A stretch of DNA of 64,000 nt from Sinorhizobium glycinis (GTDB lineage Bacteria > Pseudomonadota > Alphaproteobacteria > Rhizobiales > Rhizobiaceae): the NCBI RefSeq assembly GCF_001651865.1, contig NZ_LPUX01000053.1, positions 124,001 through 188,000 on the forward strand, written 5' to 3'. Below the pieces are notes generated by a model that ran no database searches, was not told the origin of the DNA, and saw only the letters and a list, made by a program, of their open reading frames with translations. Made by a program: the position numbers and the translations under genes. The first letter of the stretch is position 1. Each line of letters starts with the position of its first letter. This document shows, piece after piece, positions 5,060 to 64,000 of the stretch.

Positions 5060-5136
5060 TGGCGCGAGTGACGGGGCTCGAACCCGCGACCTCCGGCGTG
5101 ACAGGCCGGCACTCTAACCGACTGAGCTACACCCGC
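5060..5136 (-). tRNA. tRNA-Asp (GUC)
   Basis: Read on the minus strand this is a 77-nt tRNA gene with acceptor stem GCGGGTG/CACTCGC (one G-T pair), the D-arm AGCTCAGTCGGTTAGAGT, anticodon GTC in CCTGTCACGCC, the T-arm GGTTCGAGCC and an encoded CCA (TGG at 5060-5062). It is identical to the copy at 5206-5282. Confidence 0.97.
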
Positions 5137-5205
5137 GCATCGTGGCCATGGCTGGCCATTATCTCACCATCGACACTCTTTGAGAATGCCAATGCACCAG
5201 AAGAG

Positions 5206-5282
5206 TGGCGCGAGTGACGGGGCTCGAACCCGCGACCTCCGGCGTGACAGGCCGGCACTCTAACCGACTGAGCTACACCCGC
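5206..5282 (-). tRNA. tRNA-Asp (GUC), second identical copy
   Basis: Same 77-nt cloverleaf, anticodon GTC and encoded CCA as the gene at 5060-5136. The two lie in tandem 69 nt apart and were presumably produced by local duplication. The spacer between them is not duplicated. Confidence 0.97.
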
Positions 5283-48803: not shown

Positions 48804-48892
48804 GCGTGTCTTATCCCTTTTTCCCGCCACGCGACGCATTCCGCCGCTGCGCAATCTTCACGCAACGGCCATCCGTCCTTCCTTCTGACACC

Positions 48893-48996
48893 TACAGCGC
48901 CGCGCGCCTTACCAGGCGCGCAATGGTCGCTGTAGCACTTTGAATTGCTGCATGTCTTCGTCCTTAAATCGAGGTCGATTTAAGGAGACATGCAGT
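48893..48996. repeat. two-hairpin intergenic repeat, copy A (upstream of plsX)
   Basis: About 104 nt. The first hairpin pairs TACAGCG with CGCTGTA around an inner GCGCGCCT/AGGCGCGC stem. The second pairs TGCATGTCT with AGACATGCA and TTAAATCG with CGATTTAA. It is homologous to copy B at 53192-53294, with compensatory changes in both hairpins. It occupies much of the 301-nt gap 48804-49104, which holds no gene. Confidence 0.88.
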
Positions 48997-53108: not shown

Positions 53109-53191
53109 TTCGCACTTTCCTCCGTTTAAACCCGCGGCCTCAACTCCCTGCCGCAGGCCCCTCTACACCGCGAATCGCATACCGCCTCCTC

Positions 53192-53294
53192 TACAGCGCC
53201 GCGCGTCCGATTGGACGCGCAAAGGTCGCTGTAGCACTTTGGATTGCTGCATGATTTTGTCCTCAAATCGTTTCCGATTTGAGGAATCATGCAA
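53192..53294. repeat. two-hairpin intergenic repeat, copy B (upstream of hppA)
   Basis: About 103 nt, homologous to 48893-48996. First hairpin: TACAGCG/CGCTGTA around GCGCGTCC-GATT-GGACGCGC. Second: TGCATGATT/AATCATGCA and CAAATCG/CGATTTG. Differences from copy A fall in complementary positions of the stems. The containing gap 53109-53411 shows no gene. Confidence 0.88.
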
Positions 53295-62782: not shown

Positions 62783-63403
62783 TCACTCCCCCTTCGGAGC
62801 CGGAAATTCGGCAAGCCTAGCGGCATAGCGCGCCATGGTGTCGACCTCGAAATTGACGTGGTCGCCGGCCCTGCGCTCGCCCCAGGTGGTGACCTCGAGC
62901 GAATGGCGAATCAACAGCACGTCGAACTCGGCGCCATCCACCCGATTGACGGTGAGCGATGTACCGTCGAGTGCAACGGAGCCTTTCGGCGCGACAAAGC
63001 GGGCGAGATGTTCCGGTGCCCTGAGCCGGAATCGCACGGCGTCGCCTTCCGCCTCGACGGCGAGGATTTCCGCCTGGCCGTCCACGTGGCCAGAGACGAT
63101 GTGGCCGCCAAGCTCGTCGCCGATCTTCAGCGAGCGCTCGAGATTGATGCACGTCCCCTCCCGCCAGTCGGAAATCGTCGTCAGCCTCAGGGCCTCTTCC
63201 CAGGCCTCGACTTCGAACCACCGATCGTTGCTGCCGGCCTCCGGCAGCGCCGTCACGGTCAGGCACACGCCGGCATGGGCGATCGAGGCGCCCATGTCGA
63301 TCGTCGTCGGATCATAGCTGGTCGCGACGCGAAGCTTGATGCCTTCCCTGAGCGCCGTGACCTTCTCCACGGTACCGATATCGGTGATTATGCCTGTGAA
63401 CAT
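62783..63403 (-). CDS. ribE: riboflavin synthase (alpha-chain type)
   Basis: A 206-residue enzyme that makes riboflavin from two lumazine molecules. Its two homologous lumazine-binding barrels are visible: MFTGIITDIGTVEKV with SIAHAGVCLTV, then GGHIVSGHVDGQAEI with VALDGTSLTVNRV. It overlaps the 3' end of ribD by 16 nt, showing translational coupling. ribH, its usual neighbour, is 7 kb away here. Confidence 0.96.
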   Translation of the reverse strand: MFTGIITDIGTVEKVTALREGIKLRVATSYDPTTIDMGASIAHAGVCLTVTALPEAGSNDRWFEVEAWEEALRLTTISDWREGTCINLERSLKIGDELGGHIVSGHVDGQAEILAVEAEGDAVRFRLRAPEHLARFVAPKGSVALDGTSLTVNRVDGAEFDVLLIRHSLEVTTWGERRAGDHVNFEVDTMARYAARLAEFPAPKGE

Positions 63404-64000
63404 CCGGTATCTCTTTCGTAATCCTCGAAAATGTCGTCCCCGTACCGGGCCGCGCGCTCAAGCGAGAATCCCGCCGGTACGGTCGCCCGATCAAATGGGG
63501 ATCGGATACCCTCTTCGCCAATGGTCGCCGGGCCTGTGTAAAGCAGAATTCGATCGACGAGACCCGCATCGAGAAACTGGCGCGCCGCCCGCGCCCCGCC
63601 TTCGACGAGAAGCGAGGAAATGCCGCGCGAGGCGAGTGCGGTTAGGAGGTCTTGGACGGTGTCCGCATTCAACACTTCGACGCCAGCAGCTTCAAGGGTT
63701 TTTCGACGTGCGGCGTAATCGCCCCCTCTCCCCGCCTGCAGGGAGAGGGGCAAACTGTTCTGCCCCTCATCCGCCCTTCGGGCACCTTCTCCCCGCTCGC
63801 GGGGAGAAGGGTACGCCGCGTCGCCGGCGACGACGATCAGCGGAACGTTGCGCGCCGAGCTCACCAGTTTCGACCCCACCGCCAGATCGAGACGACGATC
63901 AAGGACGATGCGGATCGGCGAACGCTCTTCAAGCCCGGGTAACCGGACGGTGAGTTCCGGGTCGTCGGCATTTGCCGTGCCGACCCCGACGAGGATGGCA
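63388..64000 (-). CDS. ribD: RibD reductase domain, partial, with in-frame repeat insertion
   Basis: C-terminal part of the bifunctional riboflavin-specific deaminase/reductase; the gene runs off the right edge, so the N-terminal deaminase domain is not seen. The visible reductase begins AILVGVGTANADDPELTVR and includes IRIVLDRRLDLAVGSKLV and the late SLLVEGGARAARQFLDAGL. Between VVAGDAA and RRKTLEAAGVEV there is an extra stretch of about 35 residues (YPSPRERGEGARRADEG...) encoded by palindromic DNA (see the repeat entry). The frame stays open across it, so the protein may be functional with an added loop. Confidence 0.92.
   Translation of the reverse strand, partial: AILVGVGTANADDPELTVRLPGLEERSPIRIVLDRRLDLAVGSKLVSSARNVPLIVVAGDAAYPSPRERGEGARRADEGQNSLPLSLQAGRGGDYAARRKTLEAAGVEVLNADTVQDLLTALASRGISSLLVEGGARAARQFLDAGLVDRILLYTGPATIGEEGIRSPFDRATVPAGFSLERAARYGDDIFEDYERDTGCSQA
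63722..63812. repeat. palindromic (RIME-like) element inserted in frame within ribD
   Basis: Two hairpins: CCCCTCTCCC (63723-63732) with GGGAGAGGGG (63741-63750), and CCTTCTCCCCGC (63785-63796) with GCGGGGAGAAGG (63799-63810). Between them is GCCCCTCATCCGCCCTTCGG-type sequence. Its length and composition resemble rhizobial palindromic repeats that are normally intergenic. It corresponds to about 35 extra residues in RibD. Confidence 0.82.

Follow-up and report, generated by a model that had tools for sequence, protein, structure and literature searches.

Palindromic repeats that lie in frame within protein genes are already known in Rickettsia, Wolbachia and other genera, and the ribD case described here adds to that kind. 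Passages of two papers describe RPE and their Wolbachia equivalents as palindromic repeats of 100–150 bp, found in frame in conserved protein genes, at a position that orthologues from related species share (PMC2229807, PMC3767692). A guanylate kinase with an RPE is reported in one of these passages to be translated and active (PMC2229807). According to a preliminary description of our locus, in-frame repeats are best known in Rickettsia. They are indeed known there, but part of another source also reports them beyond Rickettsia (PMC3733652). These GTAG/CGTC-tagged REPs in ORFs are short palindromes and dimers within genes, many of which encode 20–30 residues; they occur in several other genera, and the genes concerned include uvrB of R. 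conorii and uvrA genes elsewhere (same part of PMC3733652). Intragenic repeats have also been described in enterobacteria (in a passage of PMC2759123). For S. meliloti, excerpts name the Rhizobium-specific intergenic mosaic elements (RIMEs) as repeats of this species (PMC2245857) and describe transcribed REP elements (PMC2873474). Our literature search, which covered open-licence papers, returned no title or abstract on in-frame palindromic insertions in rhizobial proteins.

We analyzed a stretch of 64,000 nucleotides of Sinorhizobium glycinis, hereafter the window, which ends within ribD (Table 1). The ribD frame overlaps that of the riboflavin synthase gene by 16 bases, and the order nrdR-ribD-riboflavin synthase is also annotated in S. 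meliloti Ak57. The domain spanned by Pfam RibD_C carries an insert of two GC-rich hairpin units, A and B, of 87 bp in total. The stem of unit A is perfect over 12 bp. A longer form of unit B, with a middle palindrome, is retained in the genomes G024, G001 and G003. RNA folding of positions 63700–63830 gave −75.7 kcal/mol, whereas shuffled sequences averaged −53.8 (z −5.7) and 0 of 200 were as good; DNA folding of the hairpin stretch gave a z of −5.1. The preliminary description had placed two strong hairpins inside the coding region; folding bears them out, and their coordinates were right within a few bases. It had also stated that the frame is intact on both sides. The frame is indeed open either side of the insert, between VVAGDAA and ARRKTLEAAGVEV, and the whole gene reads without a stop.

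Table 1. Coordinates of the ribD locus and of other features in the window (positions are those of the window unless a contig is given)
Feature	Position	Strand	Basis and remarks
ribD, 3′ part (reductase domain)	63388..64000	-	Open frame; RibD_C PF01872 on the window fragment, 88 bits
ribD, full gene	G000:C53:187391-188578 (5′ part beyond the window)	-	Full frame, 396 aa, stop-free
Unit A, in frame	63760..63810	-	Hairpin 63785-63810 and tail 63760-63784; reads PSPRERGEGARRADEGQ; called from sequence, folding, genomic copies and genus alignment
Spacer between units A and B	63750..63759	-	CAGTTTGCCCCTCTC across the spacer
Unit B hairpin, shortened copy	63724..63749	-	Sequence, genus alignment
Riboflavin synthase gene, directly downstream of ribD	62783..63403	-	Open frame
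103-base repeat, two copies	48892-48994 and 53191-53293		81% alike, two inverted repeats each
tRNA-Asp genes	5060-5282		Two in tandem, nearly identical

RibD has 396 residues in this genome compared to 364–367 in insert-free members of the genus with the same C-terminal ending, and the net gain from the insert is about 29–32 residues. Counted by hand on the alignment, the insert site corresponds approximately to residues 255–262 of B. subtilis RibD 2b3z, which presumably form a loop. The natural length at the site ranges from 8 to 29 residues among the other-genus rows listed, a variation that indirectly supports the surface-loop position proposed in the preliminary description. Elsewhere in the window, the 103-base repeat has a sequence unlike that of the ribD element, and the open frames adjoining its copies are presumably plsX and a proton pyrophosphatase.

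The insert DNA is confirmed as a member of a repeat family, far beyond chance. Searching the genome of the window with the 98-base stretch yielded at least 98 pieces at E ≤ 0.001, two being those of ribD itself; this count may be a lower bound, 40 of the 166 first-look candidates having been scored. The 26 pieces that we read with their flanks consist of two half-units, A ending with GATGAGGGGCA and B starting with TGCCCCTC or similar. Usually B precedes A (order B-A), with about 17 bases between them; this arrangement gave 30 exact-pattern matches in this genome and 0 with the backward-read pattern as a control. The A-B order of ribD is rare: its exact pattern, although shorter and thus more permissive, has only 2 matches, in ribD and at C53:875624 (G000:C53:875624-875644). 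The preliminary description is corrected on this point, as the insert consists of two half-units in an order that is rare in its own genome. One near-full-length B-A copy with two hairpin units is present on pSymB of S. meliloti 1021. Among the described RNA families of Rfam, a single chance-level match was obtained and rejected (MIR918, 23 bits versus a gathering score of 268). No match to the insert peptide was found by tblastn in the plasmid collection. A scan of the peptide against NCBIfam, which may lack models for some RPE, returned 0 families at E ≤ 10 with HMMER filters that drop weak matches.

ribD was present in all 33 genomes of the genus that were searched, and 17 of them carry the insert, with a recognisable unit A in 14 and shortened remnants in 3. 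The site, orientation, frame and codon junction are identical in all of them. RibDs without the insert (16 genomes) are continuous across the site. With names given by inference, Ensifer sp. IC3342, S. kostiense, E. aridi and S. saheli carry the insert, and S. americanum, S. terangae and S. psoraleae are insert-free. At the family level, 148 of the 151 genomes searched gave a RibD, 3 of them from this genus. None of the 30 RibD loci read from other genera (27 from this search and 3 Rhizobium-type loci) has the insert. With 16 of the 33 genomes and all 30 of these loci lacking the segment, and with the segment itself palindromic and copied elsewhere, neither of the refuting conditions set in the preliminary description holds. 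This agrees with its proposal that a palindromic repeat was captured in frame as protein sequence in a tolerated position: copies elsewhere are many, insert-free RibDs are continuous, the frame is kept and the peptide is relaxed (see below). However, the insertion looks old and not strain-specific.

The subtype of repeat found in ribD has a distribution of its own. Its 24-nt form (AAGGTGCCCGAAGGGCGGATGAGG, with at most 1 mismatch) has 9 copies in the 33 genomes, 6 in ribD, 2 in uvrB and 1 elsewhere, while a 23-nt form occurs in all 33 genomes, with 66 copies in the genome of the window. In the family sample, the 24-nt form is found exactly in 28 of 151 genomes and 23 of 109 genera, this genus included. 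Since within the genus it is nearly confined to ribD and uvrB, the coding copies appear to be fossil remains of an older element, whose subtype is scarce elsewhere in the genus. Peptides fitting the ribD subtype were also observed in L075 (Pseudoxanthomonas sp. Root630, gammaproteobacterial) and in L073 and L074 (Rhizobium and Pararhizobium records), which hints at a wider range of the repeat, at transfer or at contamination.

The second coding host is a protein that we take to be UvrB, a name given from its sequence and not drawn from a family search. It was matched in 32 of 33 genomes; 30 loci were taken, of which 18 tails were aligned and 12 dropped because a motif was not found. Unit A lies in the tail, between two LFRK motifs and in the same frame as in RibD, in 7 of the 18 aligned genomes; the genome of the window is among the 11 without it. 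The tail itself is variable and probably disordered. Repeat-unit loci in UvrB tails are L056 (G024:C24:75945-76010), L174, L176, L177 and L189, and further repeat-like stretches seem to be present in the tail, e.g., PPGASGHPSHKGEG. Long frames with the peptide (623 aa in both G013 and G014, 616 aa in G013, 437 aa in G014, 870 aa in G024, and others) were left out of the genic-insertion count, as frames that may not be genes.

Very probably, one palindromic repeat inserted in an ancestral Sinorhizobium ribD and was then inherited, drifting and being eroded or lost in frame, as a tolerated passenger. The repeat, with its two half-units, would have entered the reductase domain once, in the Sinorhizobium ancestor, at a point where RibD proteins vary in length anyway. 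Its longest surviving form in ribD is about 130 bp and stop-free in three of the six frames, so that the gene would have been able to stay open after insertion. The repeat would presumably be translated, giving a linker rich in Arg, Gly and Glu. It would since have passed down with ribD while its peptide drifted almost freely, with length changes seen only in multiples of three, through about three whole deletions and at least three partial ones. The insert has no known job; it would be tolerated, neutral for the enzyme, and lost whenever a deletion happens in frame. A single old insertion is supported by the agreement of 17 of the 33 genomes in site, orientation and frame. It is also supported by the insert lengths, which are multiples of 3 in 17 of 17 cases, whereas the spacers of the 30 B-A copies in the genome of the window spread 9/6/15 over the residues 0/1/2 mod 3. 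The same explanation draws support from the second core gene, uvrB, with unit A in the same frame, and from the record of S. meliloti Ak57, where an insert-bearing RibD of 401 residues is annotated as one CDS.

To what extent the peptide or the nucleotides are selected bears directly on this explanation. Differences were computed for eight genome pairs, four close and four distant. In the close pairs, the insert has an nd of 22.5 and an sd of 9.5, against 56 and 112 in the rest of RibD (Fisher p 6e-5, with counts rounded to 23/9). In the distant pairs, dN/dS of the insert is 0.26/0.55, 0.23/0.29, 0.37/0.48 and 0.26/0.22. These high ratios indicate that the peptide is close to unconstrained, although several pairs have a lower dS in the insert than elsewhere in the gene. 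An adaptive new peptide, with a function in RibD as linker or site of interaction, is thus very improbable; persistence over a long time in many lineages would fit such a role, but the GDAxx-GDYxx segment ranges from 66 to 153 nt (22 to 51 residues) and the RibD tree has about three losses. The third codon positions are more difficult to account for. Over 13 genomes (G018 left out), unit A shows 1.18, 1.00 and 0.76 changes per site at codon positions 1, 2 and 3. It thus lacks the codon periodicity of the rest of RibD (351 codons), where the values are 0.59, 0.36 and 2.48 and where 0 of 335 windows of 17 codons have as few third-position changes. The five codons directly preceding unit A reach 4.0 changes per third position (14 genomes). 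Pure neutral drift does not predict these slow third positions, which it leaves unexplained. Gene conversion from resident copies as the cause of the slow unit A tail is disfavoured, and these copies are unlikely to have refreshed it, as they belong to another subtype (G018 being an exception). The segment could instead be retained for a DNA or RNA hairpin role, e.g., in mRNA stability, in ribD-riboflavin synthase coupling or in binding of a chromosome protein, with the peptide as a by-product. Selection at the nucleotide level on such a domesticated function would explain the slow third positions together with the relaxed peptide, yet we consider it unlikely. The segment is absent in 16 of 33 genomes, and covariation in the unit A stem is not above that of shuffles (78 of 500 reach the score), so that RNA-structure selection on the stem is unsupported by this test. 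In S. meliloti Ak57, the unit A tail is kept but the stem is interrupted at some points. No slow-down is seen at the right end of the RibD insert (2.12 changes per third position over 8 codons), nor in the UvrB copy, which has 17 third-position changes in 17 codons against flank values of 0.88 and 1.07 per site.

The one old insertion that we favour must also be weighed against a hot spot at which inserts arose independently or were replaced by gene conversion. The distribution is patchy, and insertion hot spots are discussed for the Rickettsia elements in a passage of PMC3767692. On the RibD tree, built with the insert left out, parsimony requires just 1 gain plus 3 losses; with loss forbidden, it requires 7 gains. 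The clades relevant here are well supported, with 94 for ten insert-free genomes beside G027 and 99 for five beside G000; the deep nodes of this tree are weak, and several nodes in both trees have low support (28–81). On the tree of five neighbouring genes, a single gain would entail 7 losses, gains alone would number 8, and a mixed history takes 5 steps, the cheapest at equal costs; this tree is more favourable to a hot spot. Because the latter tree fits a single insertion worse, it leaves room for recombination of ribD or some repeated gain, which may have occurred. Short recombination tracts moving the insert between species were considered and are disfavoured, the adjoining codons being highly diverged. 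The insert of G018 also speaks for repeated events: it has three single-base differences that leave the total frame unchanged, and its subtype differs from that of the other ribD inserts. At least one replacement or conversion event is therefore likely, and this insert was probably replaced or converted. However, orientation, frame and codon junction are alike in all 17 genomes, flanking residues are held in common, and G000, G003 and S. meliloti Ak57 all have CAGTTTGCCCCTCTC in the spacer. At the place of GGAGAGGGGGTGATACG in G009, its sister S. americanum (G002) retains GGAGAGGG and then TGACTATG; this short stretch matches the right edge of unit B of G009 and is a possible deletion scar. 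A hot spot would also have to account for a ribD subtype that is almost missing elsewhere in the genus, and we regard it as improbable. Taken together, the lengths in multiples of three, the RibD tree, the possible scar and the common spacer favour one old insertion that was later eroded and deleted in frame, and on the RibD tree this insertion looks as old as the base of the genus.

The ribD element can be placed among the systems introduced above. RIME1 has a two-palindrome layout. Like RIMEs, the ribD element belongs to a rhizobial repeat family; unlike RIMEs, which are intergenic by name, the ribD copy is coding and does not share the intergenic location of RIME1. With the coding palindromic repeats it has in common a palindrome with other genomic copies and an in-frame position in a conserved protein whose insert-free orthologues are continuous. 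Like RPE, the repeat is palindromic, in frame and at the same site in orthologues of related species, but its hosts are soil bacteria with genomes of 6–7 Mb. Compared in length and layout, it differs from the GTAG/CGTC REPs in being longer and in having two units. The section of PMC3733652 on REPs within ORFs mentions neither ribD nor uvrB of Sinorhizobium.

Our results suggest that palindromic repeats of rhizobia, although commonly regarded as intergenic, can persist for a long time as parts of the core proteins RibD and UvrB. They also suggest that such an element can be traced across a genus from its gain through in-frame erosion to its loss. The coding copies keep a subtype that has otherwise nearly vanished from the genus, and genes can in this way serve as archives of vanished repeats. 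As S. meliloti is easy to manipulate, the translation of the insert and its harmlessness are directly testable in a free-living model bacterium.
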